NCBI RefSeq assembly: GCF_028768465.1
Contig: NZ_CP118225.1
Coordinates: forward strand, 4,197,001-4,261,000
DNA: 64,000 nucleotides
Source of the DNA: Rhodopirellula sp. P2
Lineage (GTDB): Bacteria > Planctomycetota > Planctomycetia > Pirellulales > Pirellulaceae
Direction: 5' to 3'
The number at the start of each line of letters is the position of its first letter. Within the stretch, counting starts at the first letter, position 1. The translations under genes were made by a program, and so were the position numbers. The notes under the pieces are model-generated. The model was not told the origin of the DNA. It saw only the letters and a program-made list of their open reading frames with translations, and searched no databases. Shown in pieces: positions 28,483 to 64,000 of this stretch.

Positions 28483-29269
28483 AGGTCGGCAGAAATGCTC
28501 GGGCAAAACCCTGTGAGCCGTTTGGGCGTTAGCCCCGGTTGCACGTGGGAACAGTGACGTTTGCCATGAAATTTCAAATGCCAAAAGACTCCTGACGACT
28601 TGCGAAAGAACCACTCTGATCGAACGAGCGTCACGAAACAACTGTTCGATCAAAAAATGGTGCCGCCAAATGAAGCGAGCCTTCCGGTGGGTCACCAAAA
28701 GGCTCCTTTGAATCAGCTAAGCAGGTCGGCTGGAATGATCGGGCACAACCATGTGAGCCGTTTGGGCGTTCGCCCCGGTTGTGCGTGAAAACCGTGGCTA
28801 ACGCCAGCGGCTCACATACCCGATGACACCTGCGTACCTGCTTAACGGCTTGTTGATCGACTCGAGTTCACAACCCGACGCGTGAGCGAGGGACCCATAG
28901 GCTCGTTGCAATGGCACGCGATCCCACACTAAGCAGGTCGGCTGGAATGATCAAGCACAACCCTGTGAGCCGTTTGGGCGTTCGCCCCGGTTGCGTGTGA
29001 AAACCGTGGCTAACGCCAACGGCTCACATACCCGATGACACCTGCGTACCTGCTTAACGGCTTGTTGATCGACTCGAGTTCACAACCCGACGCGTGAGCG
29101 AGGGACCCATCGGCTCGTTGCAATGGCACGCGATCCCACACTAAGCAGGTCGGCTGGAATGATCGGGCACAACCATGTGAGCCGTTTGGGCGTTAGCCCC
29201 GGTTGCGTGTGAAAACCGTAGCTAACGCCAGCGGCTCACATACCCGATGACACCTGCGTACCTGCTTAA
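28483..29269. repeat. Tandem array of palindromic repeats (212-bp unit)
   Basis: Three complete copies of a 127-bp palindromic unit (28718-28844, 28930-29056, 29142-29269), spaced exactly 212 bases apart, plus a partial copy from 28483. Each begins TAAGCAGGTCGGCTGGAATG, contains inverted GTGAGCCGTTTGGGCGTT / AACGCCAACGGCTCAC arms and ends ACCTGCGTACCTGCTTAA. The 85-bp spacers between copies are also nearly identical, with GACGCGTGAGCGAGGGACC. No gene is apparent. Confidence 0.85.
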
Positions 29270-29337
29270 CGCTTTGCGTTAGGATTCAATCAACAGGCCG
29301 CTGACGTTGAGCGTCTCCACCTTGTCCGGAATTCGAC

Positions 29338-29925
29338 TCAGGGAAGTTTCGCGACCACGGTCGCGACATCCGCCCGGTCACCGTGCGAGACAACCGTTTT
29401 TCCGAAGACAATCTTTTGGTCTTGTCCCACCACGAAGGTCGAAGGGTAGGCGGTTTCGCGAGGAGCGTCCCAGCGAAGTCCCCAAGCGTTGGTGAACTTG
29501 TAGTCGGGATCAAGCACAAAGTGATAGTTCGCTGGAAACGACTTGTTCCCTTGGAAATCTTTCGCGTGCTCGCCCAGCGACTCAGCAGGGCCAGGGTAGA
29601 TGAGCACCACTTGTGCACCCGACAGAGCGGACTGTTTGGACAAAAATTCACCGACCTGGCGGTTGCACATCGGGCACTGTTTGCCGGTCCATCCTCGCAA
29701 GACAAGCATCACAACGGGGGACTTTGCCGTCAGCGACTTCAGCGACACGACTTCGCCATTTTGATTCATCAATTGAAAGTCAGGGGCGACTTCGCCAACC
29801 TTGGGTGGATGGGGTGGCTCCTTCCCAGGCTGGGCTTGCCGGCGACCTTGAGCTTGAGCGTTCGCAGAAAAGGCAACGAACACGAGAGTCAACAACAGAC
29901 CGATGGTGGAACGACGATTTTGCAT
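29338..29925 (-). CDS. Secreted AhpC/TSA-type thioredoxin-fold protein
   Basis: 195-aa redoxin starting at ATG 29925, which gives a signal peptide (MQNRRSTIGLLLTLVFVAF, cleaved near AQAQ). Mature fold begins GEVAPDFQLMNQNGEVVSLKSL, and the active site is GKQCPMCNRQ, a CxxC in the peroxiredoxin position (VLRGWTGKQCPMC). Later YPGPAESLGEHAKDF and PSTFVVGQDQKI match AhpC/TSA enzymes. The open frame continues upstream to 30132, but that stretch overlaps the divergent peptidase leader and lacks a signal. Likely a periplasmic peroxidase or thiol-disulfide protein; physiological partner unknown. Confidence 0.87.
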   Translation of the reverse strand: MQNRRSTIGLLLTLVFVAFSANAQAQGRRQAQPGKEPPHPPKVGEVAPDFQLMNQNGEVVSLKSLTAKSPVVMLVLRGWTGKQCPMCNRQVGEFLSKQSALSGAQVVLIYPGPAESLGEHAKDFQGNKSFPANYHFVLDPDYKFTNAWGLRWDAPRETAYPSTFVVGQDQKIVFGKTVVSHGDRADVATVVAKLP

Positions 29926-47222: not shown

Positions 47223-48800
47223 CTTGACGAGTCCAAACCGAACGGGTTGGAAAGCAACGCGTCCAACCAAAGAACAAATTCACCCTCCTGGCAGGAGGGT
47301 CGAGCGAAGCGAGGGGAGGTCGAACGCCAACACCCCAGACCATTGAAAAAGTGAAATTGACAATTGCAAATTGCAAAAGGACTTGCCACTCCCCTGTTCA
47401 ACGCCGCCGCGCAGCAAGTCGGTCGCTCGTAGGCCAGGTCCCACCTGGCACTGGATCTTTGGAGACGTTCAAAAAACAAATGGTGGCTGGCATCTCGGTT
47501 TTCGCCCCGGATGGGGCCGTCGTGCTTAGCTCGGGGCGGAAGCCCCGAGAGACCGATGCCGAAAAACAAACGGTCGCCCCGGATGGGGCCGTCGTAGAAG
47601 TTGGGTGGCGTCCTTCGCTCACGCGCTTTGAAGTTGCGCTTTATCCGTCAATAGCCAACGGCCTTTTTCAACATAGCCAGGGGCATCGCCCTTGGATCAG
47701 TAAAGCACGGCCCCATTTTGGCCAACGGCCAAATTCAATTCAAAACGTGTGGGTTGATGTTGGCCATTGGCCAACCAATTTCCCTCCATCTCGATCCCTG
47801 GGGCGATGCCCCAGGCTACGATGACGAAGGCCGTTGGCCAACAATACAGATTGCAAAAGCGCAACTTCAAAACTCACGCGTCGCGTTGTGATGGACACTC
47901 TTGCCCGTCGGAGTTTTAGATGTCAGACAAGAGTGCCCAACCGACAACAAACTCGACGAGTCCAAACAGAACGTGTCGGCAAGCAAGCGTCCAGCAAAAG
48001 AACAAATTCACCCTCCTGGCAGGAGGGTCGAGCGAAGCGAGGGGAGGTCGAACGCCAACACCCCCGTCCATTGAAAACGTGAAATTGACAATTGCAAATT
48101 GCAAAAGGACTTGCCACTCCCCTGTTCAACGCCGCCGCGCAGCAAGTCGGTCGCTCGTAGGCCAGGTCCCACCTGGCACTGGATCTTTGGAGACGTTCAA
48201 AAAACAAATGGTGGCTGGCATCTCGGTTTTCGCCCCGGATGGGGCCGTCGTGCTTAGCTCGGGGCGGAAGCCCCGAGAGACCGATGCCGAAAAACAAACG
48301 GTCGCCCCGGATGGGGCCGTCGTAGAAGTTGGGTGGCGTCCTTCGCTCACGCGCTTTGAAGTTGCGCTTTATCCGTCAATAGCCAACGGCCTTTTTCAAC
48401 ATAGCCAGGGGCATCGCCCTTGGATCAGTAAAGCACGGCCCCATTTTGGCCAACGGCCAAATTCAATTCAAAACGTGTGGGTTGATGTTGGCCATTGGCC
48501 AACCAATTTCCCTCCATCTCGATCCCTGGGGCGATGCCCCAGGCTACGATGACGAAGGCCGTTGGCCAACAATACAGATTGCAAAAGCGCAACTTCAAAA
48601 CTCACGCGTCGCGTTGTGATGGACACTCTTGCCCGTCGGAGTTTTAGATGTCAGACAAGAGTGCCCAACCGACAACAAACTCGACGAGTCCAAACGAAAC
48701 GGGTCGGAAAGCGAGGCGTCCAGCCGAAGAACCAATTCACCCTCCTGGCAGGAGGGTCGATCGAAGCGAGGGGGGGGCAGACGCAAACACCCCCGTCCAT
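47221..48800. repeat. Tandem repeat block, unit about 728 bp (2.2 copies)
   Basis: Copies begin AACTTGACGAGTCCAAAC at 47221, 47950 and 48677 (729 and 727 bases apart). Each contains AATTCACCCTCCTGGCAGGAGG, GATGGGGCCGTCG (twice) and a CCAACGGCC-rich region related to 12290-12720. The third copy is truncated. Frames open in the repeats (such as 47351-47824) give mirror proteins in both copies and are not credible genes. Confidence 0.85.
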
Positions 48801-48835: not shown

Positions 48836-49242
48836 TCACCCCGCCTCAGCCAAGTCCTCGTCCCGCATCAACCGATCCAACGGACTGACCACCTTCGCCT
48901 CATGCGGATTTCGCACGTGCGTGTAAATCTCCGTCGTCTTCACATCGCTGTGTCCCAGCAACTGCTGAATCTGGCGAATGTCCGTCCCCTGCCACAACAG
49001 ATGCGTCGCAAAACAATGGCGAAACGTGTGGCTCGTCACATGCTTCAAAATCCCTGCCTGCTCCACCGCGCGTCGCAAGTGAGTTGGGAAGGTGACCGCA
49101 AGAAAGCAATCACATCATCGGCCGAAAACTTCCAATCCGGTTCCGTCTTCCGCCGGTGAAATTGGCAAAGCTTTTGGAACCATATCTTCGCCCAACGCTG
49201 CTTCTGTTCGGCACTCGCCGGTTTCGAAAACGTTCCCATCAC
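48836..49242 (-). pseudogene. intI: Integron-integrase remnant (internal deletion plus frameshift)
   Basis: Minus-strand remains of an integron tyrosine integrase. N-terminal part (49242 inward): PASAEQKQRWAKIWFQKLCQF then [13 protein letters not shown], like the IntI SAM-like domain. After a junction the frame changes to the C-terminus (48836-49078): [25 protein letters not shown] and VSPLDRL, which is the IntI C-terminal signature with catalytic His, Arg and Tyr. Only about 130 residues remain of some 320-340; the central catalytic region with the first Arg is missing and the two parts are out of frame. It points away from the cassette array, as IntI normally does. Therefore the integron is integrase-dead, unless a copy elsewhere acts in trans. 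Confidence 0.82.
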
Positions 49243-51519: not shown

Positions 51520-51601
51520 GACTTATTCCCACCGGCAAACCGTGTAGAATAAACCTCACCACTTATTCCCACCTGTCCAACAGGTGATAAACAAGTTATC
51601 C
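51520..51601 (+). other. Candidate attI site with direct repeats
   Basis: ACTTATTCCCACC occurs twice (about 51520 and 51562) upstream of a GTTATCC core at 51595-51601, just before the first cassette. Direct repeats plus one core are the layout of an attI site. Distance from the integrase remnant (2.3 kb) is increased by the insertion sequence and repeats. A second weak candidate is GTTAGCC at 49343. Confidence 0.4.
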
Positions 51602-51616
51602 AACTGGAGTGGCACG

Positions 51617-52018
51617 TTGACGAATCCATACGAGTCCCCAGTATCTGATTCTCGCTCAGAACGAGACCGGAACTGGAACCGCGATCAATGTCCAGTGTGC
51701 CTGACAACACTCAGCCTCTGGAAGGTACTAAACACGATTCGATTTAGTTGTCCGACGTGTTCAACACGACTCACAATCACCCTCGGGCCTGGCTGGACGC
51801 GTTTGATCTTTCGCGTTTTTTGGCTGCTGCTTGTTTGCTATTGCTTTTGTGATCTCTACCTTCAGATCGAGCCCAAGTGGTACGCCAGTTTTCCATTCGT
51901 CCTCTTCGGCCCGTTGATACTTTTGTCCCTATTGCGTTTTGGTTACCTGCATCCTTGCCAGAGAAACTGGATTAGTTCTCGTCCACCAACTGTGTACAAT
52001 TCCGGGCGTGAGGGATAA
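51617..52018 (+). CDS. Cassette 1: NPYxxP small membrane protein with CxxC pairs
   Basis: 133-aa cassette protein. TTG 51617 with Shine-Dalgarno ACTGGAG gives MTNPYESPVSDSR, with the NPYxxP start seen in many planctomycete small membrane proteins. CPVCLTT and CPTCSTRL form a zinc-ribbon-like pair, followed by two membrane helices (VFWLLLVCYCFCDLYL; FVLFGPLILLSLLRFGYL). The frame opens earlier at GTG 51584, but that lies in the putative attI core. The TAA stop is part of the R box of the following attC. Function unknown. Confidence 0.65.
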   Translation: MTNPYESPVSDSRSERDRNWNRDQCPVCLTTLSLWKVLNTIRFSCPTCSTRLTITLGPGWTRLIFRVFWLLLVCYCFCDLYLQIEPKWYASFPFVLFGPLILLSLLRFGYLHPCQRNWISSRPPTVYNSGREG

Positions 52019-52418
52019 CCAATAAGGATTTGACTTCGCGTGGATGCGGCGGTTGAGTCTCTTTCTCTTTCATGTTGCTTCGTTCGTCGCGGTTCAAAAC
52101 GCGTCGCCTAGCCGAAGCTCAAGTCCTCTGTTCAAGATGCCCGGGGGTAAATGGCGAGGCGTTGATTGAGGATCTCTTGGGAATTGCTTCCCGGCTGCGT
52201 TCTCTAACGAAGAGGCAGGTTGGTTTTGAAGTAGGTGAATTGCTGATCGGCCGTTTGCTCTGTGCCTGTTCCGCTGGCGACGAGTTGGATGGAAGCGGAT
52301 TGACGCTCATTGCCCGATTAATTTTGAGCTTGAGATTGCTGTCGCGACATACCTTCCTCCTTCGCCCTCCTGAAGACGTTCGAATTCGACCGGTCATTTC
52401 ACTTCCCCGGTTCATGCG

Positions 52419-53567
52419 TTACCCACTGTCGTAGTAAGTCAGCCCATGCTCGGGACGGATGCCCTGCGACGACAACGATGTGTAGCTGACCTCAATCGCT
52501 CGCATGATCCCGCCGCACAGGCGACACTTCATCGGTGCGGTCAGTGGTTCAACCTGTGGCGCGTAGCCACTGCCCAGCCAGAAAGTCCAGCCAAGCATCA
52601 GCCACACCAACCACTTCACCTCCTCGACCTTCACCTTGCTGTTGCCGCTCATCCACCCGTAATGACGAATCTTCATGAAGTTCGTCGGCAACACGTGCTG
52701 CAAGAAGTCGCCCACGAACTCTTCGCCGGCAACCTCTTTGTTCTGAACCACGTTTCCCTTGCGACGAATTTGGTACGTCACCGTTTCTGAGTTGACATCG
52801 ATGATCCGGCTGTCGTTGATCGCGACTCGATGAACGTACGGTGCCAGGTACTTCAGCGTTGGAACGCCGTGCCCGACCGCCTGGATGTCGACGACGAAGT
52901 CTTTCGTCCAAGTCTCGCGATCGACTTGGTCATACAGCCCAGCGGCACGAAGCTCATCGGCCAGCTTCGCTTTGTAGACGCGGATCAGCGTGCCGTGATG
53001 GAACAAGAAGTTCTCCGGTGTGCTCTGCCATGATTCGGCATTGCCTTGCTCATCCAGTTTCACTCCGCCGCCAGGAACGACATAGTGAACGTGCGGATGA
53101 TAGACCGCCGGGTCACGGCCCCAGGTGTGCAGCACGCCGAAGAATCCAAGCTGGCATCCTTTCAGGCTCTTGGTTGCCGCGCCCACATCGCGAATGCTCT
53201 GACTGCTGGCATCGAACAAGCATCGGTAGCCGTCACGTTGGTGAACGCGCAGCACCAAGCCGATCTCCCGGGGCACCGTGAAAGTGACCAAGAAGTGATG
53301 AACCGGCATCAGCTTGGCAGACTGCGTTTCAATCCAAGCCTGCGTCTTCTCGTGACCGCAGTTTGGGCAGTGCCGATTGCCACACGAACGTCCGACCCAG
53401 TGATCGCTTCCGCAACCGCCGCACTGGTAGTGAACACCACCCAGTGCACCGGTGCGACAACGAGTGATCGCGCCAAGAACTTTATCTTCGGCGACCGAGA
53501 TCGAATCGGCGTGTTGCTGCAGGTATGCCGGTGCGAATTGCCGAAGAGCCTCCGCAACCGTGGGCAT
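52419..53567 (-). CDS. IS91-family transposase, copy 1
   Basis: 382-aa HUH-type rolling-circle transposase. The N-terminal zinc-binding region has CGGCGSDHWVGRSCGNRHCPNCG-like Cys pairs, the metal-binding HUH motif is in HPHVHYVVPGGG, and a catalytic tyrosine is in FMKIRHYGWM, consistent with the one-tyrosine (ISCR-like) group. It starts 14 nt after the recombinase stop, in the same operon. The zinc finger, HUH and Tyr motifs are all intact, so it may be active. About nine residues differ from the copy at 59238. Confidence 0.92.
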   Translation of the reverse strand: MPTVAEALRQFAPAYLQQHADSISVAEDKVLGAITRCRTGALGGVHYQCGGCGSDHWVGRSCGNRHCPNCGHEKTQAWIETQSAKLMPVHHFLVTFTVPREIGLVLRVHQRDGYRCLFDASSQSIRDVGAATKSLKGCQLGFFGVLHTWGRDPAVYHPHVHYVVPGGGVKLDEQGNAESWQSTPENFLFHHGTLIRVYKAKLADELRAAGLYDQVDRETWTKDFVVDIQAVGHGVPTLKYLAPYVHRVAINDSRIIDVNSETVTYQIRRKGNVVQNKEVAGEEFVGDFLQHVLPTNFMKIRHYGWMSGNSKVKVEEVKWLVWLMLGWTFWLGSGYAPQVEPLTAPMKCRLCGGIMRAIEVSYTSLSSQGIRPEHGLTYYDSG

Positions 53568-53581
53568 TTGCCAGAGCGGGT

Positions 53582-54526
53582 TTACTCGCCGCTGCCTGGT
53601 AGCCTACCGAACAACTTTTCGATTTCTTCACGAGCGTTGGCCTCGGCCGTATCAGTCAAATGCAGGTACACCATCGTGGTCTGCAGCGACGAATGCCCCA
53701 AGTACTTTTGAATCACCTTCAGCCCCACGCCCGCTTCGAGCAAGTGCGTCGCATAGGAATGACGCAGCGTATGAATGCTGACCTTCTTGCCAAAGCGGAG
53801 GTTTTTCGTGATCTGCTTCATTGCTCCTTGAACGGCCGTTTCGCTCATCGGAGTCGTCGCTTGACTGACGCCGTCTTTGGCAAGGCTGTGGTTTCGGCCA
53901 TCTGCCGGAAACAGCAGGCGTGGGTGCCGGTGACTTGCCCAGTAGCTTCGCAGAAGTCGAACGGTCGTCGTCGGCAGCGGGACATACCGGTCCTTGGCTC
54001 CCTTGCCACGATGGACATGGACCCAGCCTCGCTGGGCGTCGATGTCACTGACCTGCAAATGCAGCGCTTCATTGAGTCGCAGTCCCAGCGAATAGACGGT
54101 CCAGAAATAGACGAACATTCGCCGCGTGGTCGCCGAGCCGATCAGTTCATGAACCTGATCGATCGTCAGCACCTCCGGCAACGTGGTGATGTTTTGGAGC
54201 TTGAGCATCTTGATGATTTCCCAGTCACGCTTGCAGGTGTGCGTGAACAAGAATTTGATGCCTGAGAAGGCCACCCGGAGCGATCCATAAGCAAAGTTGC
54301 GTTCGTTTTTGAGGTGCAAGAAGAACTGCCGCACATGCTGCTCGGTCACCTGATCGGGACTGCAACCGGCGAAATCGGAGAGCTGCCTGACCGCTCGGAT
54401 GTAGCCATCGTGAGTTCGCTTGGCCTTGCCGGTCAGGTGCAAGTCTTCGGAGAGTCTCAGGCGAAGACTTTCCGGGAAGTGAACTCCAGGTGCATTTTGC
54501 GGATTGTTTGAGCTAGAATTGGACAT
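53582..54526 (-). CDS. IS91-associated tyrosine recombinase, copy 1
   Basis: 314-aa recombinase starting at ATG 54526 with AAAAGGA eight bases before it. The N-terminal SAM-like domain (LTGKAKRTHDGYIRAVRQL) is followed by the catalytic domain with Arg in SLGLRLNEALHL, HTLRHSYATHLLEAG (His and Arg) and GHSSLQTTMVYLHL (Tyr). All catalytic residues are present. It precedes the HUH transposase in the same operon, a combination seen in many IS91-like elements. The frame opens to 54628 but reads through the leader hairpin. It may target attC-like DNA because both copies sit there. Confidence 0.9.
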   Translation of the reverse strand: MSNSSSNNPQNAPGVHFPESLRLRLSEDLHLTGKAKRTHDGYIRAVRQLSDFAGCSPDQVTEQHVRQFFLHLKNERNFAYGSLRVAFSGIKFLFTHTCKRDWEIIKMLKLQNITTLPEVLTIDQVHELIGSATTRRMFVYFWTVYSLGLRLNEALHLQVSDIDAQRGWVHVHRGKGAKDRYVPLPTTTVRLLRSYWASHRHPRLLFPADGRNHSLAKDGVSQATTPMSETAVQGAMKQITKNLRFGKKVSIHTLRHSYATHLLEAGVGLKVIQKYLGHSSLQTTMVYLHLTDTAEANAREEIEKLFGRLPGSGE

Positions 54527-54537
54527 GTTGTGTTCCT

Positions 54538-54587
54538 TTTCAGGAGGAGTTGCTGAGCTGTTCCCAGCGAACAGCTCCTCCTGAAAG
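54538..54587 (-). promoter_or_regulatory. Conserved leader hairpin of IS91 element, copy 1
   Basis: TTTCAGGAGGAG and CTCCTCCTGAAA arms, with nested GAGCTGTT/AACAGCTC, end just before the recombinase start. The identical hairpin occurs at 61357-61406. It could sequester translation signals or form a structured single-stranded end. Confidence 0.55.
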
Positions 54588-54658
54588 GTTGCTTCCAGCA
54601 ATCCGCAACGCGTCCGTTCCACCATCAATTTGAAACCGCCGCGCTAGCGGCTTACTTG

Positions 54659-54747
54659 AACCATCCGATGCAACCGAGCGGCGAATTCGGGCGTTTTGAA
54701 GTGGACGATCAACCGTCGCCGCCGGCTGATCGGTAACGTTACCCGAC
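54659..54747 (+). other. attC-like site 1 (split by IS91 copy 1)
   Basis: Right part of attC after cassette 1; the left R'' box GGATAAC is at 52013-52019. Complementary halves GAGCGGCG and CGCCGCCGG surround a central CGTTTTGAAGT, and the right R' box is GTTACCC. Confidence 0.75.
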
Positions 54748-54772
54748 TGAAACTGAACGAACTGTAAACCAC

Positions 54773-55204
54773 ATGGACATTGCTGACGCCATTGCTGTTT
54801 TGCTCGACTGCAATGAACCAGTGCCGAAACCTTTGCGGCTGCCGACCGAATCAGATGTCCGCGCTGTCGAAAGCGAACTTGGCGTCGGCTTGCATCCTGA
54901 CTTTCGCCGGTTTCAACTGGAGGCAAGTAATGTTCGCTTCGGCATTCGAGAACCATTCGTTGCCCTACCGGATCTGATGCCCTACCTTAGCCTCGCCGCT
55001 AACGCAAAGGCGGCATGGGCTGCAGGCGTTCCTCGAAACTGCATCGCCTTCTGTGGCGACAATGGAAACTACTTCTTCCTCGACCCGGCCGGTTGTGTTG
55101 GGTACTATGACCACGACTCAGATTCACATTCGGCGTCAAAGCAAACGCTTGCTGATTGGATATTCGAAGATTGGATCAACGATCCAGCACTTTCCGACGA
55201 TTGA
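54773..55204 (+). CDS. Cassette 2: SMI1/KNR4 family protein
   Basis: 143-aa cassette protein with the SMI1/KNR4 fold: LPTESDVRAVESELGVGLHPDFRRF at the start and NCIAFCGDNGNYFFLDPAG, where the GDxGNYFFLDP strand is the family signature. Such proteins often act as immunity proteins against polymorphic or contact-dependent toxins, or as adaptors. No toxin gene is nearby, which is normal for a cassette. It is followed directly by attC site 2. Starts at ATG 54773 just after the attC 1 end. Confidence 0.85.
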   Translation: MDIADAIAVLLDCNEPVPKPLRLPTESDVRAVESELGVGLHPDFRRFQLEASNVRFGIREPFVALPDLMPYLSLAANAKAAWAAGVPRNCIAFCGDNGNYFFLDPAGCVGYYDHDSDSHSASKQTLADWIFEDWINDPALSDD

Positions 55205-55214
55205 TCCAAGCGGC

Positions 55215-55307
55215 GGGTAACCATCGCGTGAACCGGAGCACGCGAGTCGACGTTTTTGAAGTTGAGAATCTTCCGCGCGTGCCCGGTTACGCGTGTCGTT
55301 ACCCGAC
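55215..55307 (+). other. attC-like site 2
   Basis: GGGTAACCATCGCGTGAACC at the left pairs with GGTTACGCGTGTCGTTACCC at the right; inner arms GCACGCG / CGCGTGC; loop contains CGTTTTTGAAGT. Confidence 0.8.
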
Positions 55308-55322
55308 AGATTGGAACCTCGA

Positions 55323-56045
55323 TTGCGATACTTAGCTCTTCTCCTGTTCTTAACGTCGCTTGGATGCTCAGAGCCTGTCGTCTCTCGCAGCGATGTGCTT
55401 GATAATACGTCGGGTTCAACCGCAGTAAACGAATCTGACCCACCATGGGGTGGTCTGAAGATTCAGTCCTCAGGAATATCACTCGACGACGCCGATCAAA
55501 TCGTCGTACTGCTTCATGGCTACGGCGCTACCGATGCTGATCTCACGCCACTTGCGGAATACATTGGCGGTGACAAGCGTGCATTCGTCTTTCCCGCCGC
55601 ACCCATCCCTGTTGACGGTGGAGGACTCGCATGGGCGACAACCGAGCAGGAACTCGAAACCGCTCATGCTCGTCTCGCATCTCTGGTGCGTTTCGCTAGC
55701 CGGACATACCCCGATGCGGAGATAGCGGTCGGTGGATTCTCGCAGGGGGCAACTGTATCAAGTATGCTCCTGTCGGACGCAAGTCTCCCAATTCGTCACC
55801 TTATCCTCTACTCACCCGCACTTGCGATCGACGCGGAATCACTTGGCCCCGCACGCAATATCCAGGTTCTGCTTGCGCACGGCCGAGGCGACCAAGTGCT
55901 GCCGTTTGATGACGCTAAGCGGTTGCATGAAATGCTTGAACGCAAGGGAGTTGTGACTAACTGGCACCCGTTCAACGACGGACATACAATCACAACCGAA
56001 GTGCTGGACGCCACGAGAGACCAGCTATCGCAAGAGGGCGGGTAA
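55323..56045 (+). CDS. Cassette 3: lipoprotein carboxylesterase/phospholipase-like hydrolase
   Basis: About 240-aa alpha/beta hydrolase. TTG 55323 gives a lipoprotein signal with lipobox LTSLGC near residue 15, so the enzyme should be anchored in the envelope. The catalytic triad is Ser in GGFSQGAT, Asp in HGRGDQVLPF and His in DGHTI, with oxyanion region LLHGYGATDADLTPLAE. It matches the phospholipase/carboxylesterase family. The longer GTG 55293 frame overlaps attC 2 and is less likely. A cassette-borne envelope hydrolase of unknown substrate. Confidence 0.85.
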   Translation: MRYLALLLFLTSLGCSEPVVSRSDVLDNTSGSTAVNESDPPWGGLKIQSSGISLDDADQIVVLLHGYGATDADLTPLAEYIGGDKRAFVFPAAPIPVDGGGLAWATTEQELETAHARLASLVRFASRTYPDAEIAVGGFSQGATVSSMLLSDASLPIRHLILYSPALAIDAESLGPARNIQVLLAHGRGDQVLPFDDAKRLHEMLERKGVVTNWHPFNDGHTITTEVLDATRDQLSQEGG

Positions 56046-56053
56046 CCATCGCA

Positions 56054-56768
56054 ATCGGGATAGGGGCCCGGTTGCCCGGGACCCCTCCCACACCACCTAG
56101 CATGCGGGACCGCACTAGGCGGTTGAGCACGAGTTTCAAATCAACGCGTCGCCGCGATGACCCAAGCCATTAGACCGACAGCTTCGCCGCTAAGAGATTG
56201 CCATACGGCAACGGCTCCTTCGTGAGATGATGTCGATACGTGCTTGCTCATTCCCTTCAGGCCTTCGCGTCGCCGTTGGATTCGGCGGATCGCTACTATG
56301 CCTTCTGCTGACTTCTCTTTGCACGGGCATACGTTGCCGCATTCCGCCCCGCCTTTCGGGCAAGCCCTACTCACGGGTACGCATCGAGATCTCCCCAAAT
56401 AAGGGACGTCCTTGATCGCTCAAGAACACGTGATCTGTCCCCGCCCAAGTGCTTGATCTACCTCCGCTCTTTCTTCCGGTTCGGCTTCTTGGTCAGCAGC
56501 CCAATCGCCTGGAGTCGTCGGCCTCGTATCAAGTTTCTGTTCGTCACCTGGCGGGTCTTGGCGAGAAGATGTCCAGCGACGATTCTTTGCTGGCTTACCG
56601 ATCATCTTCGCAGGCTTCCTCCCCACGGTTCGTCACCTCCCCGCAGTTGCCCTCGCCTCGTACTGTTCTTTACGAGCTATCCATTTGGTATCATGACTCC
56701 CGTAAAGAAAACCGGAACTAAGTACAGGGGACTTCCACCCCACAAGATCACGCCCATGTTGGGCGTAC
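56054..56768 (-). mobile_element. Group II intron-like ribozyme, ORF-less, inserted in attC 3
   Basis: 715-base insertion on the minus strand splitting attC 3. Its 5' end reads GTACGCCCAACATGGGCG (GTGYG-like) followed by the domain-I motif GGTGGAAGTCCCC. Its 3' end has a hairpin around CCGCCTAG...CTAGGTGG (possible domain V), then GGGTCCCGGGCAACCGGGCC and TATCCCGAT (domain VI-like). Excision restores GGGTAACCATCGCA|TGCAACGG, which matches the other attC sites. It is too short for a maturase. Group IIC introns are known to use attC targets, with the same opposite orientation. Confidence 0.6.
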
Positions 56769-56848
56769 TGCAACGGAGAACGGGTGGTTCGTTTTCTCGT
56801 CTGCTTGCAAGTCGTTCGCCCGTTCCCGCTGATGCGTAACGTTATTCG
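56769..56848 (+). other. attC-like site 3 (split by the intron)
   Basis: Left part GGGTAACCATCGCA is at 56040-56053; right part has AACGGAGAACGGG / CGCCCGTTCC arms and ends GTAACGTTATTCG. Confidence 0.65.
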
Positions 56849-57115
56849 ATTGACTCATGCTCGTATCGGCGGACGAATCGCTGCGATATGTGTGGCTCGA
56901 TCCAATGCTCGTTCAGCATTCGATTCAGGTCGCGAGCAGTGTAGATTCCATGCTCGCTTGCCAGTTCGTTCCATGCTCGATGTTGCCGTTCGATCATCCG
57001 CCCAATTTGCCGCGTGAACGTCGCAGACCTGATACGATGAATTCAGAGCCACGCAATTGTTTCGGCGTTTCCCAGGATCGTGGTGCGCTCGCTCCTGCAC
57101 CGCCTGCGCGTGAAC
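56849..57115 (-). pseudogene. Cassette 4: degenerate cassette, homologous to cassette 8
   Basis: About 270 bases closely related to 61567-61833. The minus strand has a protein-like frame (AWNELASEHGIYTARDLN, then EHWIEPHISQRFVRR), open to a stop in both copies but interrupted by TGA in this one after ETIAWL; in the other copy the frame is open there but stops earlier at MSQ. The + strand frame open from ATG 56857 shows many replacements between copies. No family recognised; likely a decaying gene. Confidence 0.4.
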
Positions 57116-57213
57116 GAATAACCATTGCGTGCACACTGAGCGGTGGTGGAGACCAACCTCGCTTTCCAATCACACTGACCGCCACCGCCAGGTGACGCTG
57201 ACCGTTATCCGAC
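57116..57213 (+). other. attC-like site 4
   Basis: GAATAACCATTGCGTGCACACTGAGCGGTGGTGG through to GACCGCCACCGCCAGGTGACGCTGACCGTTATCC. It is nearly identical to site 8. Confidence 0.8.
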
Positions 57214-57222
57214 TTTCAAACC

Positions 57223-57516
57223 ATGAACTCTGAATTCAAAGCCAATCTGGATCGTAAACTCGCCGACTTGCGTGACTGGATGCGCGCACACTCCTTTGCA
57301 AATTGCCGCATCGTACAGTACTGCGGAGTTGAATGCCTTGGAGGCGTGGACATCGAACGCGATGAACTTGAGTGCCGCGTTGAATGCTACATCAAGGAGG
57401 GATTCAACGCCGACTGGAGCATACTGGATTCGCTTGCCGTCCTTCGGATTTACGAATATCCTGGCCCCGAGCCGGCGTGGGATCTCGTTCTCTCCGAAAG
57501 CGATCTTGCGAGCTGA
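57223..57516 (+). CDS. Cassette 5: small acidic protein, unknown
   Basis: 97-aa acidic cassette protein (MNSEFKANLDRKLADLRDWM...). Residues 1-25 look helical, then beta-rich with VQYCGVECLGGVDI, WDLVLSE. It has no signal or membrane segment. No family recognised. ATG 57223 lies ten bases beyond attC 4. A single-gene cassette of typical size, followed after about 30 bases by attC 5. Confidence 0.6.
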   Translation: MNSEFKANLDRKLADLRDWMRAHSFANCRIVQYCGVECLGGVDIERDELECRVECYIKEGFNADWSILDSLAVLRIYEYPGPEPAWDLVLSESDLAS

Positions 57517-57546
57517 ACTTGAAATGCAACCCGCTTAAATGCACTC

Positions 57547-57643
57547 GGATAACCATGGGTTGTTGACGGAGCGGCGGTGGCACGCTTTTTCGTTTGCTTG
57601 CAAGCCGATCGCCGCCGCCCGCAAAACCCTACCGTTCCCCGAT
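57547..57643 (+). other. attC-like site 5
   Basis: GGATAACCATGGGTTGTTGACGGAGCGGCGGTGG pairs with CCGCCGCCCGC...CCCTACCGTTCCCC. Confidence 0.75.
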
Positions 57644-57661
57644 CAGGAGTTAGCGATCGAA

Positions 57662-58120
57662 CTGAACCCCTACAACCCGCCTCAGACTTTTGATGCAGTC
57701 GAGTCACGAGATGCAACCGCGATCCGAAGAATTCGACCCCCGGCAACTGGACTCATCTTCATGCTTTCGGTTCAATCGTTTGGCTACGCTATTGCAGGAA
57801 TTGTTGCTCTCGCAATGCTGGCTCTCGGGGAGACTGTTGACGCGACGTTGTTTGGCATCTGTTTCGCCGTGGTGCATTTCTTCGCAATGATCTTTATGAT
57901 TCAATCAATGCGACATGTTCGTCGACTGCAAGGGCTTCGCAACGGAAGAATTGCGGCGGGACTTGCGTGTATCCCATTCATTTCGCCTGCGATCTGGATA
58001 GGCATTCCTCTCGGTATCTGGCTATCCGTGATTCTATTCAAGGACGACGTGGCTGCGGCTTTTCACGAGACAAACGCAGAAGACGGGGAACCATCGGTTG
58101 CAACGGAGGCCGCGAGTTAA
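57662..58120 (+). CDS. Cassette 6: NPYxPP small membrane protein
   Basis: About 152-aa membrane protein beginning near LNPYNPPQTFDAVESRD, the same NPY style as cassette 1. Start is non-standard: CTG 57662 is likely, with AGGAG at 57645; ATC 57656 has better spacing. The longer ATG frame from 57539 is attC 5. Three membrane helices (SFGYAIAGIVALAMLALG; LFGICFAVVHFFAMIFMI; LACIPFISPAIWIGIPLGIWLSVILF). Its last 12 residues and stop are inside attC 6. Function unknown. Confidence 0.6.
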   Translation: MNPYNPPQTFDAVESRDATAIRRIRPPATGLIFMLSVQSFGYAIAGIVALAMLALGETVDATLFGICFAVVHFFAMIFMIQSMRHVRRLQGLRNGRIAAGLACIPFISPAIWIGIPLGIWLSVILFKDDVAAAFHETNAEDGEPSVATEAAS

Positions 58121-58176
58121 CGTTTTTGAAGTGGTGAGTCGTTCGCGCGGCCCCGTTGAACCGTGCCGTTACCCGA
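58085..58176 (+). other. attC-like site 6
   Basis: GGGGAACCATCGGTTGCAACGGAGGCCGCG pairs with CGCGCGGCCCCGTTGAACCGTGCCGTTACCC, loop CGTTTTTGAAGT. Overlaps the end of cassette 6's gene. Confidence 0.75.
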
Positions 58177-58189
58177 ACGAATTAGTCCG

Positions 58190-58819
58190 TTGAGCGAATT
58201 TTTTGAAAACTTCAAATTCGACGAGTTCGACGACCCTATTCCGTGGGTCACATCAAGCCCCGTTTTTATAGACGCCGAGCTAACTTACGAGTTCGATTCA
58301 TTGCGAGGATGTGTCAAGCGGAACCAGCGTCGACGTAGAAACGCAACAGTCGAAGTCTATGCCCACAATGAACTTGAGAACGGATACCAAGAATTCCAGC
58401 AGGCAGCATGGGGCGATCTAAGCACCTACGCAACTTCGGTGGAAACAGCAGTGGCAGAAAAGCTCTGGCCGATTTGCCGTGAAAACTTCACGACCTGTAT
58501 TGCTTCTCTTGAAACGCACGAAAAGACATGGAGTGCGATTCGCAGTAGAGAACAATGGGACGACAAATCCGTTTTGCTGAAACAGATTGCACTAACAGGC
58601 ATTTCTCTTTTTGATACCGAAATCGCTGGTCACGGCATTTTCTCACTCGACTTCGCAGTCGGATGGGACGAAGAGCACGGGGTTAGCCTTTTGATGGTCC
58701 GTGACAAGGTCATTGCAAAGAGCGGGCTGGCTGACTTCATTTGCCGCGGTGAATCGTTACTCGATCATGCAAAGTACATTCAAAACTATGACTTCACGCA
58801 GGGCGATTTGCGTATTTGA
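58190..58819 (+). CDS. Cassette 7: unknown protein, immunity-like composition
   Basis: 209-aa protein (TTG 58190, LSEFFENFKFDEFDD; GTG 58163 is an alternative in the attC). Possible resemblance to DUF6985-type immunity-associated domains in FSLDFAVGWDEEHGVSLLMVRDK; this is uncertain. Acidic, no signal peptide or membrane helix. The stop is about 15 bases before the attC 7 box. Otherwise hypothetical. Confidence 0.5.
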   Translation: MSEFFENFKFDEFDDPIPWVTSSPVFIDAELTYEFDSLRGCVKRNQRRRRNATVEVYAHNELENGYQEFQQAAWGDLSTYATSVETAVAEKLWPICRENFTTCIASLETHEKTWSAIRSREQWDDKSVLLKQIALTGISLFDTEIAGHGIFSLDFAVGWDEEHGVSLLMVRDKVIAKSGLADFICRGESLLDHAKYIQNYDFTQGDLRI

Positions 58820-58832
58820 GCAGTACGAAACG

Positions 58833-58839
58833 GGTAACC
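58833..58839 (+). other. attC-like site 7, left R'' box (split)
   Basis: GGTAACC immediately left of IS91 copy 2; the remainder is at 61478-61566. Confidence 0.7.
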
Positions 58840-59237
58840 AATAAGGATTTGACTTCGCGTGGATGCGGCGGTTGAGTCTCTTTCTCTTTCATGTTGCTTC
58901 GTTCGTCGCGGTTCAAAACGCGTCGCCTAGCCGAAGCTCAAGTCCTCTGTTCAAGATGCCCGGGGGTAAATGGCGAGGCGTTGATTGAGGATCTCTTGGG
59001 AATTGCTTCCCGGCTGCGTTCTCTAACGAAGAGGCAGGTTGGTTTTGAAGTAGGTGAATTGCTGATCGGCCGTTTGCTCTGTGCCTGTTCCGCTGGCGAC
59101 GAGTTGGATGGAAGCGGATTGACGCTCATTGCCCGATTAATTTTGAGCTTGAGATTGCTGTCGCGACATACCTTCCTCCTTCGCCCTCCTGAAGACGTTC
59201 GAATTCGACCGGTCATTTCACTTCCCCGGTTCATGCG

Positions 59238-60386
59238 TTACCCACTGTCGTAGTAAGTCAGCCCATGCTCGGGACGGATGCCCTGCGACGACAACGATGT
59301 GTAGCTGACCTCAATCGCTCGCATGATCCCGCCGCACAGGCGACACTTCATCGGCACGGTCAGTGGTTCATCCTGTGGCGCGTAGCCGCTGCCCAGCCAG
59401 AACGTCCAGCCAAGCATCAGCCAGACCAACCACTTCACCTCCTCCACTTTCACCTTGCTGTTCCCGCTCATCCATCCGTAATGACGGATCTTCATGAAGT
59501 TCGTCGGCAACACGTGCTGCAAGAAGTTGCCCACGAAGTCTTCGCCGGCAACCTCTTTGCTCTGAACCACGTTTCTTTTGCGACGAATTTGGTACGTCAC
59601 CGTTTCTGAGTTGACATCGATGATCCGGCTGTCGTTGATCGCGACTCGATGGATGTACGGTGCCAGGTACTTCAGCGTTGGAACGCCGTGCCCGACCGCC
59701 TGGATGTCGACGACGAAGTCTTTCGTCCAAGTCTCGCGATCGACTTGGTCATACAGCCCAGCGGCACGAAGCTCATCGGCCAGCTTCGCTTTGTAGACGC
59801 GGATCAGCGTGCCGTGATGGAACAAGAAGTTCTCCGGTGTGCTCTGCCATGATTCGGCATTGCCTTGCTCATCCAGTTTCACTCCGCCGCCAGGAACGAC
59901 ATAGTGAACGTGCGGATGATAGACCGCCGGGTCTCGCCCCCAAGTATGAAGCACGCCGAAGAACCCAAGCTGACATCCTTTCAGACTCTTGGTTGCCGCG
60001 CCCACATCGCGAATGCTCTGACTGCCGGCATCGAACAAGCATCGGTAGCCGTCACGTTGGTGAACGCGCAGCACCAAGCCGATCTCCCGGGGCACAGTGA
60101 AAGTGACCAAGAAGTGATGAACCGGCATCAGCTTGGCAGACTGCGTTTCAATCCAAGCCTGCGTCTTCTCGTGACCGCAGTTTGGACAGTGTCGATTGCC
60201 ACACGAACGTCCGACCCAGTGATCGCTTCCGCAACCGCCGCACTGGTAGTGAACACCACCCAGTGCACCGGTGCGACAACGAGTGATCGCGCCAAGAACT
60301 TTGTCTTCGGCGATCGAGATCGAATCGGCGTGTTGCTGCAGGTATGCCGGTGCGAATTGGCGAAGAGCCTCCGCAACCGTGGGCAT
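59238..60386 (-). CDS. IS91-family transposase, copy 2
   Basis: 382-aa HUH transposase, near-identical to 52419-53567, with the same zinc, HPHVHYVVPGGG and RHYGWM motifs, all intact. Replacements are scattered, such as SVAED to SIAED, and PYVHR to PYIHR, suggesting the copies arose separately or have diverged since. Follows the recombinase in the same operon. Confidence 0.92.
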   Translation of the reverse strand: MPTVAEALRQFAPAYLQQHADSISIAEDKVLGAITRCRTGALGGVHYQCGGCGSDHWVGRSCGNRHCPNCGHEKTQAWIETQSAKLMPVHHFLVTFTVPREIGLVLRVHQRDGYRCLFDAGSQSIRDVGAATKSLKGCQLGFFGVLHTWGRDPAVYHPHVHYVVPGGGVKLDEQGNAESWQSTPENFLFHHGTLIRVYKAKLADELRAAGLYDQVDRETWTKDFVVDIQAVGHGVPTLKYLAPYIHRVAINDSRIIDVNSETVTYQIRRKRNVVQSKEVAGEDFVGNFLQHVLPTNFMKIRHYGWMSGNSKVKVEEVKWLVWLMLGWTFWLGSGYAPQDEPLTVPMKCRLCGGIMRAIEVSYTSLSSQGIRPEHGLTYYDSG

Positions 60387-60400
60387 TTTCCAGAGCGGGT

Positions 60401-61345
60401 TTACTCGCCGCTGCCAGGCAGCCTACCGAACAGCCTTTCGATTTCTTGACGAGCGTTCGCCTCAGCGGTGTCAGTCAGATGCAGATAGACCAAGGTGGTC
60501 TGCAGCGACGAATGCCCCAAGTACTTTTGAATCACCTTCAGTCCCACGCCCGCTTCGAGCAAGTGCGTTGCATAGGAATGACGCAGCGTATGGATGCTGA
60601 CCTTCTTGCCAAAGCGGAGGTTCTTTGTGATCTGCTTCATCGCTCCTTGAACGGCCGTTTCGCTCATCGGAGTCGTCGCTTGGCTGACGCCGTCTTTGGC
60701 AAGGCTGTGGTTTCGGCCATCTGCCGGAAACAGCAGGCGTGGGTGCCGGTGACTTGCCCAGTAGCTTCGCAGAAGTCGAACGGTCGTCGTCGGCAGCGGG
60801 ACATACCGGTCCTTGGCTCCCTTGCCACGATGGACATGGACCCAGCCTCGCTGGGCGTCGATGTCACTGACCTGCAGATGCAGTGCTTCATTGAGCCGCA
60901 GTCCCAGCGAATAGACGGTCCAGAAATAGACGAACATTCGCCGCGTGGTCGCCGAGCCGATCAGTTCATGAACCTGCTCGATCGTCAGCACCTCCGGCAA
61001 CGTGGTGATGTTCTGGAGCTTGAGCATCTTGATGATTTCCCAGTCACGCTTGCAGGTGTGCGTGAAGAAGAACTTGATGCCCGAGAATGCCACGCGGAGT
61101 GATCCATAAGCAAAGTTGCGATCGTTTTTCAGGTGCAAGAAGAACTGCCGCACATGCTGCTCGTTCACCTGGTCGGGACTGCAGCCGGCGAAATCAGAGA
61201 GCTGCCTGACCGCTCGGATGTAGCCATCGTGAGTTCGTTTGGCCTTGCCGGTCAGGTGCAAGTCTTCAGAGAGTCTCAGGCGAAGACTTTCAGGGAAGTG
61301 GGATCCAGGTACATCTTGCGAATCGTTTGAGCTAAACTTGGACAT
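60401..61345 (-). CDS. IS91-associated tyrosine recombinase, copy 2
   Basis: 314-aa tyrosine recombinase from ATG 61345. The catalytic Arg (SLGLRLNEAL), HTLRHSYATH and GHSSLQTTLVYLHL motifs are intact. The N-terminus differs from copy 1 at several residues (MSKFSSNDSQDVPG). The frame extends to 61576 through the hairpin into the attC, which is unlikely to be translated. Confidence 0.9.
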   Translation of the reverse strand: MSKFSSNDSQDVPGSHFPESLRLRLSEDLHLTGKAKRTHDGYIRAVRQLSDFAGCSPDQVNEQHVRQFFLHLKNDRNFAYGSLRVAFSGIKFFFTHTCKRDWEIIKMLKLQNITTLPEVLTIEQVHELIGSATTRRMFVYFWTVYSLGLRLNEALHLQVSDIDAQRGWVHVHRGKGAKDRYVPLPTTTVRLLRSYWASHRHPRLLFPADGRNHSLAKDGVSQATTPMSETAVQGAMKQITKNLRFGKKVSIHTLRHSYATHLLEAGVGLKVIQKYLGHSSLQTTLVYLHLTDTAEANARQEIERLFGRLPGSGE

Positions 61346-61356
61346 CTTGGTTTCCT

Positions 61357-61406
61357 TTTCAGGAGGAGTTGCTGAGCTGTTCCCAGCGAACAGCTCCTCC
61401 TGAAAG
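61357..61406 (-). promoter_or_regulatory. Conserved leader hairpin of IS91 element, copy 2
   Basis: Identical arms to 54538-54587 (TTTCAGGAGGAG with CTCCTCCTGAAA), directly upstream of the recombinase gene. Confidence 0.55.
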
Positions 61407-61477
61407 GATGCTTCCAATAATCCGTCACGCTTCCGTTCCACCACCAATACGAAACCGCCGCGATAGCGGCTTACTTG

Positions 61478-61566
61478 AACCATGCGATGATACGGAGCGG
61501 CGGTGGTCGCCGTTTTGGCAATGGTTGAGTCGCTCGCCGCCGCCCGCATATCGCTACCGTTATTCG
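61478..61566 (+). other. attC-like site 7, right part
   Basis: AACCATGCGATGATACGGAGCGGCGGTGG ... CGCCGCCCGCATATCGCTACCGTTATTCG. Left R'' box at 58833. Confidence 0.75.
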
Positions 61567-61833
61567 ATTGACTCATGCTCGTATCGGCGTACGAATCACT
61601 GCGACATGTGGGGCTCGATCCAATGCTCGGTCAGCATTCGATTCAGGTCGCGAGCAGCGTAGGTCCCATGCTCGCTTGCTGGTTCGCTCCATGCTCGAGG
61701 TTGCCGTTCGATCGTCCGCCCAGCTTGCCTCGCGAACGTCGCATACCTGATACGATGAAATCCGAGCCACGCAATTGTTTCGACGTTTCCCAGGATCATG
61801 GTGCGCTCGCTCCTGCACGGTTCACGCGTGAAC
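61567..61833 (-). pseudogene. Cassette 8: degenerate cassette, homologous to cassette 4
   Basis: Same sequence family as 56849-57115, with many scattered substitutions. On the minus strand the frame from MILGNVETIAWLGFHRIRYA is open but stops at MSQ, whereas copy 4 continues at that point with RFVRRYEHESIE and is instead interrupted upstream. Each copy is broken at a different point, so an ancestral gene of about 75 codons is likely. No function recognised. Confidence 0.4.
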
Positions 61834-61930
61834 GAATAACCATTGCGTGCACACTGAGCGGTGGTGGAGACCAACCTCGCTTTCCAATCACCCTGGCCGC
61901 CACCGCCAGGTGACGCTCACCGTTATCGCA
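61834..61930 (+). other. attC-like site 8
   Basis: GAATAACCATTGCGTGCACACTGAGCGG to CCGCCACCGCCAGGTGACGCTCACCGTTATCG; almost identical to site 4. Confidence 0.8.
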
Positions 61931-62414: not shown

Positions 62415-62508
62415 CGATAACCAAGCCATTCAACGGAGCACGGCTTGCCAGGTTTTTTGCAATGGAAAATCAAACGTCCGTGCCCGCTGATGGCAAACGT
62501 TATTGCGA
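62415..62508 (+). other. attC-like site 9
   Basis: CGATAACCAAGCCATTCAACGGAGCACGGC pairs with CGTCCGTGCCCGCTGATGGCAAACGTTATTG. Confidence 0.75.
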
Positions 62509-62853: not shown

Positions 62854-62947
62854 CAATAACCAATGCATGCTGCGGAGTGGCGGTGGAGACCAACAACAAG
62901 TGGAAATCCGGTTTTCGCCACCGCGCAGATGCTTCCCGTTACCCGAC
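62854..62947 (+). other. attC-like site 10
   Basis: CAATAACCAATGCATGCTGCGGAGTGGCGGTGG to CGCCACCGCGCAGATGCTTCCCGTTACCCG. Confidence 0.75.
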
Positions 62948-63470: not shown

Positions 63471-63560
63471 GGGTAACCATGCGATGAACACGGAGTGGCC
63501 GAAAACACGTTTACAAATGAAAGATCAACCGCGGCCACCCGGTTATCGCAACCGTTGAAC
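63471..63560 (+). other. attC-like site 11 (intact)
   Basis: GGGTAACCATGCGATGAACACGGAGTGGCCG to CGCGGCCACCCGGTTATCGCAACCGTTGAAC. The best template for the undisturbed site split by IS91 copy 2. Confidence 0.8.
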
Positions 63561-63894
63561 TTAATCGAGTCGTCCGGCCGACACGCTTTCTCCAGTGCAC
63601 GGGCTGGCAAGCTCTTTCGGTGGGGGGCCGCTTCCTTGCGGTGTGATGGTTGGCATCCCTGCCAACCATGCATGTTCCATCAGCTTCGCTGACTCGAACT
63701 CTGCGGCGGGAACGTGATGGATGACGGCAGTGGCGGTCTTGAAATAGCACGCTCATGGGAATGAACGCCTTCGGCAAGGTCCGGTTAAAACGGTTGTAGG
63801 ACTTGCGCTTTTGGGTTTCCCAAGCACTGTGGAATGCTTCCGCACACCGAACTCTCGGCGTGCGATGCTTCCATCCTGCTTTGAGACAAGTGCA

Positions 63895-64000
63895 ATGGCT
63901 CCCTCCGAAGAACATTCTTGCAAGCTGACTCGCCGAATGGCTGAGGACATGCTCATCCGAAACATGGCCCCCGCGACCATCAAGGCTTACACCTATCACG
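63895..64000 (+). CDS. Tyrosine recombinase, 5' fragment (IS91-associated type)
   Basis: First 35 codons of a protein cut by the window edge: MAPSEEHSCKLTRRMAEDML, then IRNMAPATIKAYTYH. This is the SAM-like N-terminal domain of a phage-type integrase, similar in type but not in sequence to the recombinase of the two IS91 copies. It is on the + strand. The 330 bases before it (63561-63894) have no recognised gene and could be the left end of another mobile element or a twelfth cassette. Confidence 0.65.
   Translation, partial: MAPSEEHSCKLTRRMAEDMLIRNMAPATIKAYTYH

Follow-up and report, generated by a model that had tools for sequence, protein, structure and literature searches.

The window analysed here is the whole stretch of 64,000 nucleotides at positions 4197001-4261000 of contig C1 in the 7.29-Mb genome of Rhodopirellula sp. 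P2 (Pirellulaceae; the host genome, G000). It contains an array of integron cassettes entered by two copies of an IS91-type insertion sequence, labelled ISA, and by the start of a second, distantly related element, labelled ISB. BLAST aligns the two ISA copies without gaps, with 2582 of 2700 bases identical including short flanks, and these are the flanks quoted by an earlier, sequence-only reading that had placed each copy in an attC site. The unit, as given by the period of abutting tandem copies in the host genome, is 2642 bp and not the 2638 bp stated there, the element's own 3' AACC having been omitted. Each copy carries a transposase gene, tnpA, and a tyrosine recombinase gene (Table 1). 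Copy 1 sits right behind the TAA stop of a cassette open reading frame (ORF, 51584-52018), that TAA being part of the R'' box of the occupied attC.

TnpA of copy 1 reads PHVHYVVPGGG and YLAPY, i.e. the HVH and YLAPY motifs, and scores 321.6 bits against NF033538 (cut-off 125), which identifies it as a Y2 HUH transposase with the Zn_Tnp_IS91 domain of the IS91 family. The recombinase carries the HTLRH and LGHSSLQTT.VY blocks. Its nearest named models are XerA, IntI and XerC/D, each scoring under its cut-off (154 bits against the integron integrase model TIGR02249, cut-off 265), and the best solved chain by E-value is 2a3v, IntI4. In the alignment, the ISA and ISB recombinases have a gap at the IntI-specific insertion near the catalytic domain, where the host IntI has about 30 extra residues. 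The gene is found in nearly all full-length ISA copies examined and is still 54-65% identical in more distant members. Among the Pfam matches of the five ORFs given there are only Y2_Tnp/Zn_Tnp_IS91 and Phage_integrase domains, and no reverse transcriptase family.

To recognise attC sites, a covariance model was built from 29 aligned sites of the host genome without ISA, one of which has ISB at R'. It took the place of a simple stem score combined with a GTT search, which was dropped for its poor separation (many p near 0.03, some none) and because it overlooked R' boxes with a spelling other than GTT; the 409 controls behind it were few and included attC sites. Matches to the model in the window are confined to 54.6-63.6 kb, i.e. 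the cassette array, and there are zero inside either ISA copy. The right halves of both occupied sites score in register, with 83.8 and 72.2 bits, and joining the flanks gives an attC in each case, in agreement with the sequence-only reading. To the left of copy 2, the R'' box (GGGTAAC) matches the complement of the R' of the preceding attC at every base, as cassette logic demands.

The preference for attC extends far beyond the window. When 108 loci were scanned for the motif that marks the right end, GCGGCTTACTTGAA, and one mismatch was allowed, 46 distinct strings emerged, reduced to 44 on removal of a tandem junction and of a string found in L200 and three others (within tnpA, on the wrong strand). 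Exactly in register with attC, at R'', are 35 of these 44 right ends, a figure that includes L177, whose match starts one base past the cut; among mismatch-free ends the count is 33/38. If the [GT]AAC sites in 62 loci were struck by chance, about 1.6/44 would fall in attC, an expectation that assumes independence and concerns loci selected through element ends, not through attC. The left flanks tell the same story: for 26 distinct left ends an attC ends no more than 700 bp upstream, and the R''/R' complement is 7/7 in 23 of them and 6/7, 5/7 and 4/7 in the remaining three (mean 6.77 against 5.20 shuffled, with 0/2000 shuffles as high). Because of this complementarity the left flank is read as the R'' of the split attC. 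Seven short ISA derivatives also bear on the matter: at about 620-780 bp they retain both ends and have no room for the genes, and the core variant AAGGCTTTGAC is frequent among such derivatives. Five of them are in attC register (L160 twice, L161, L163 and L199; not in register are L141 and L208), hence the ends of ISA suffice in cis. The specificity of ISA for R'' of attC is real and strongly supported by the junctions. The listing of flanks bears out the sequence-only reading as to attC, and departs from it as to the bond GTAACC^AT (the caret marks the cut).

Concerning the exchange point, the single-nucleotide target held up, and the bond TAACC^AT now looks less likely. The two window copies do not suffice to read the point, AAC(C) being common to the target and the element end, so that other junctions are required. 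AA precedes the cut in 92/102 distinct left ends, obtained with a core filter that itself requires CC and allows two mismatches. The right flanks of in-register ends continue after TTGAA with CC, CA, CG, CT and once TC, and on the left AAC is followed by C also in copies whose right junction has CA, CT or CG. Since the right flanks vary after AA, the second left C is part of the element. Short left ends are duplicated in two cases, 117 bp in the host genome and 56 bp in G485; both terminate in GTTCAA and run on into the CC of the next copy. In intact ISA, GTTCAA precedes G. The simplest common cut would be AA^C, i.e. RYYYAA^C of the R'' top strand, more likely than TAACC^AT. ISA insertion shows no detectable target duplication beyond the AAC(C) of its own end, the joined flanks amounting to one attC. 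As the terminator end supplies TTGAA, the right junction keeps AAC beside the rest of attC, and a chimeric attC-like site persists after insertion. Such a site could be struck again, which fits the abutting tandem arrays.

Both ends of ISA are structured. The origin end, which we identify as such by its position 3' of tnpA, is an imperfect hairpin that begins two bases past the cut and ends at GTT(CAA). Members differ in its inner part, which spans about 70 nt in some and about 10 nt in others; the unit has 117 bp in the host genome and 56 bp in G485. From 62 origin units, four of them excluded because the 3' arm was absent or unusual, 38 distinct arm pairs were obtained, and over 18 pairs 95.8% of the 684 cells are paired. 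Both sides have changed in 24 cases, compared with 6.1 after reshuffling of whole 3' arms, and 0/2000 shuffles reach either the pairing or the change value; the compensatory changes comprise T-A to A-T and G-C, A-T to C-G, and G-C to T-A and C-G. The extra base of the 3' arm is present in 38/38 arm pairs, arms having been matched without gaps, so that any without the base would match badly or drop out. The terminator end carries a short hairpin followed by TTACTTGAA. Structured origin and terminator ends, with the origin 3' of tnpA, are the arrangement of the IS91 family. Since the target AAC joins the origin hairpin, the resulting order AAC, spacer, hairpin and GTT is the layout of attC itself. 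The ISA origin looks attC-like and not identical to attC, and we put forward attC mimicry as a hypothesis.

The second element, ISB, occupies the mirror position. It has five copies in the host genome, with a recombinase and a Y2 transposase frame of 706-712 residues, and begins at the R' box or within it, its junctions reading C^GTTGAAC on the left and CAATTC^GTT on the right. Of these copies, four are at attC, the match to the model ending there for three and partly for L227; the fifth (L228) is not at attC. A G485 copy in L202 likewise begins in register with an attC match. The right-end core occurs in 57/241 family genomes, and 11/30 loci fetched by this core contain an attC match; the pattern itself ends in GTT, so that GTT after those ends is uninformative. 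Left-end searches with two mismatches were mostly noise, and the places in the host genome and G485 alone were used. The ISB origin is a long hairpin, AAC...GTTGAAC. In trees, the ISA, ISB and proteobacterial IS91-plus-recombinase transposases form separate groups, ISA and ISB being distantly related; the trees, with three main groups and no outgroup, are compatible with one or two origins of attC targeting.

On this evidence ISA is probably a rolling-circle element of the IS91 family that targets the R'' of attC, taking attC as an origin-like hairpin, because both follow one layout: AA^C, a spacer, an imperfect hairpin that has an extrahelical base, and GTT. ISB, with the same layout at R', supports the origin-like reading of the target. 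TnpA would nick the ISA origin at AA^C, directly 5' of the bulged hairpin; one strand would be displaced up to the terminator, i.e. through its hairpin and TTACTTGAA, and would be joined to a target cut likewise. The Xer/IntI-like recombinase probably has a part in holding or recognising the paired AAC/GTT boxes, or in resolving the products; of all the steps this is the least certain. Tandem copies and short origin units are only suggestive of a single-stranded circle and of one-ended transposition. A wider proposal, which we advance tentatively, is that the origins of IS91-type elements in this lineage copy the structure of attC, so that the HUH transposase treats folded attC sites as its own origins. 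ISA (top strand, R'') and ISB (bottom strand, R', the IntI bond) may then split the site between them, and an ISA insertion, rebuilding a usable attC, would ride in a cassette and could be moved by IntI.

Several observations weigh against these readings. Of the 102 distinct left ends, ten have no AA ahead of the cut, and a recombinase of the integron type would cut at AA^C too. The extrahelical base lies in the 3' arm of the ISA origin, whereas an attC read from R'' has it in the 5' arm. A Phaeobacter relative also has a long bulged origin hairpin and no attC was found there, hence the hairpin alone is insufficient for specificity. Copies at sites without attC structure were named beforehand as what would speak against attC targeting, and there is one clear off-target insertion: the copy at L088:2908-5549 (G353) lies inside a Y1 (IS200-like) transposase gene, with target GTCAAA^CAAAACG and both flanking halves matching PF01797. 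Eight other right ends are without an in-register match. Among them, L055:14006 is where cassettes switch orientation, L061 belongs to a degraded copy, L208 has an apparent half attC after it, L101 and the second end of L102 have attC-like but unscored flanks, and in L104, L141 and L166 the covariance model scan showed no attC. Strand, enzyme and intermediates, moreover, are ones that we infer from ends and junctions.

It is unlikely, though worth weighing, that the element's own tyrosine recombinase integrates it, a circle with the crossover CTTGAA^CCA[AG]TAAG recombining with R'' and TnpA merely making that circle. The AA^C exchange at R'' corresponds by symmetry to the bond cut by integron integrases at R', the joined ends are by eye nearly palindromic (CTTACT...AGTAAG, G507 type), and the gene is conserved, with IntI4 as the best solved chain, as described above. 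The ISA recombinase, however, lacks the insertion present in the host IntI, and the tandems and duplicated origin units fit premature or repeated rolling-circle ends. IS91, according to PMC5714925, moves through its own transposase.

We likewise consider it doubtful that TnpA reads a linear sequence, AAC.A plus a few bases common to planctomycete attC, with folding irrelevant. The 29/29 aligned attC 5' halves do share A5, A6, C7, A9, T15, A23 and G24, but the occupied sites vary after AA, as listed above, and over the next ten bases, and tandem and chimeric sites differ in their 5' side. Far less probable is a survivor bias, in which ISA would insert loosely at AAC and only harmless attC insertions would persist. 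An R'' box can overlap the stop of a cassette gene, as at copy 1, and insertion there would be mild; cassette genes are presumably dispensable, however, and far longer than attC, and none was recognised as a target among the 44 ends (L104, L141 and L166 being unclassified). Selection against harm, moreover, cannot explain why 35/35 in-register ISA ends are at R'' and attC-borne ISB at R'. Insertion of ISA as a cassette by the host integron integrase is hardly credible, even with a full IntI in the genome (G000:4768073-4769020, its sole full-length match above cut-off), and this route and a cassette origin of ISA were dropped: integron cassettes have their own 3' attC and join at R', whereas ISA enters R'', leaving attC split, and has no covariance model match inside the window copies.

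The favoured reading, an IS91-family element with attC as its target, has to be set beside known systems. The sequence-only reading knew of no IS91-like HUH plus tyrosine-recombinase element with attC specificity; the target is indeed new, and the gene pair is already common in Proteobacteria and on plasmids (L236, L237, L238, L239, L240 and L242). These elements share with ISA the gene pair, the gene order and a Y2 HUH transposase with zinc-finger cysteines, and L236 shares in addition the terminator hairpin GCCGC..GCGGCTT and a bulged origin hairpin. Their TnpA proteins (L236, L237, L239 and L242) are 32-36% identical to that of ISA. L236, L237, L239, L240, L241 and L242 gave no attC match, the model being one of planctomycete attC that could overlook distant ones. 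The Roseobacter element of this type at L236, L240 and L241, three sites without an attC match, provides a natural contrast for target specificity.

The IS91 archetype has the target GAAC/CAAG, without attC context, and is not known to have a partner recombinase. PMC5714925, PMC13393415 and PMC9676059 describe IS91 and ISCR as having origin and terminator ends, structured for ISCR, and a rolling-circle transposase with Y249/Y253-type tyrosines, and IS91 as making no target duplication; ISA is like them in its origin and terminator ends, in their structure and in the lack of target duplication. Other elements do use attC. The IS1111-type ISKpn4 and ISPst6 target it (PMC11187229); this group has a DEDD transposase with a seekRNA guide, an enzyme unrelated to that of ISA, in which Pfam finds no DEDD domain (a guide RNA was not sought). 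Group II introns (IIC; also IIB) are associated with integron attC (PMC7923331) and are retroelements, in contrast to ISA with its lack of a reverse transcriptase match in the ORFs given. In the portions at hand of the literature surveyed, mostly papers outside subscription and with ISfinder excluded (PMC7923331, PMC11187229, PMC13393415, PMC9345347, PMC6218425, PMC5714925 and PMC9676059), no IS91-family element is described at attC. ISA belongs to the IS91 family, and its novelty lies in targeting attC and not in its pair of genes.

A rolling-circle HUH element that chooses attC links two single-strand DNA systems. Integron integrases read attC as folded single strands, and ISA offers a natural test case for whether fold or sequence guides an HUH transposase. 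Insertion would leave a cassette with an attC-like site and the element as passenger, which points to a way for integron arrays to acquire transposons and still keep attC. The element also suggests a function for the recombinase gene, so far unexplained, that many IS91 elements carry, and ISA could serve as a tool for DNA insertion at cassette boundaries.

As to distribution, the host genome has nine full ISA copies, distributed over six sites, and in addition left ends that are diverged or broken. Head-to-tail tandems are found at 4917082-4925006 (three copies) and 4925841-4931124 (two copies), with a period of 2642 bp. R. europaea has an ISA transposase at 94% identity. TnpA relatives with E up to 1e-60 occur in 13/396 genomes of the order, the host included, and the left-end core, with at most one mismatch, in 53/241 family genomes; the reversed control pattern matched five times overall, and a few one-mismatch left-end places are chance matches. 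Regions were fetched around 18 TnpA matches and 80 left ends, 18 listed places being left out. From L055:14001 to L056:6241, between two ISA arrays, the cassettes are reversed and the first array is without a normal right flank, an arrangement that looks as after an inversion.

Table 1. Features of the window related to ISA, ISB and attC (window coordinates; CM, covariance model).
Feature	Position	Strand	Basis
ISA copy 1, CCAATAAGG...CTTGAA, 2642 bp	52019..54660	genes on -	BLAST, junctions
ISA copy 2, 2642 bp, 96.3% identity to copy 1	58838..61479	genes on -	BLAST, junctions
Copy 1 tnpA, IS91-family transposase (Zn_Tnp_IS91 + Y2_Tnp)	52419..53567	-	Pfam E 6e-49, NCBIfam NF033538 E 6e-96
Copy 1 tyrosine recombinase, ATG 54526 (ORF opens at TTG 54628)	53582..54526	-	PF00589, PF13495
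Copy 2 tnpA	59238..60386	-	Pfam/NCBIfam matches
Copy 2 tyrosine recombinase, ATG within element (listed ORF starts outside ISA)	60401..61345	-	Pfam
Probable AA^C exchange points	52018^52019, 58837^58838		junctions in other genomes, two short origin units
Copy 1 origin end, 117-nt imperfect hairpin, one extra base in 3' arm, ends GTTCAA	52019..52135	+	fold and covariation
Copy 2 origin hairpin	58838..58954	+	sequence identical to copy 1 here
Copy 1 terminator end, hairpin GCCGC-GCTA-GCGGC then TTACTTGAA^	54638..54660	+	motif GCGGCTTACTTGAA recurs in relatives
Copy 2 terminator end	61457..61479	+	sequence
Left part of target attC 1 (R'' GGATAA^)	52013..52018	+	junctions
Rest of target attC 1; chimeric attC with element-end TTGAA	54661..54744	+	CM match 54655-54744, 83.8 bits
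Left part of target attC 2 (R'' GGGTAA^)	58832..58837	+	complement of R' of attC 58085-58174
Rest of target attC 2	61480..61565	+	CM match 61474-61565, 72.2 bits
Unoccupied attC	55215..55304	+	CM; several unoccupied sites also in training set
Further unoccupied attC	56762-56847, 57116-57210, 57547-57640, 58085-58174		CM
Further unoccupied attC	61834-61928, 62415-62505, 62854-62944		CM
attC with ISB in R' box	63471..63560	+	CM; also in training set
ISB start (recombinase + Y2 transposase, about 2.85 kb), runs beyond window	63554..64000	+	five host-genome copies, Pfam

Within the array, the cassettes at 56810-57109 and 61528-61827 are related (87% identity over 300 bp), with near-identical attC sites, and upstream of it lies a fragment of an integron integrase gene, its C-terminal part (48869-49093). 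A final point concerns repeats elsewhere in the window: three tandem 212-bp repeats at 28717-29352, and a 300-bp direct repeat pair at 47259-48286, 728 bp apart and 98% identical.

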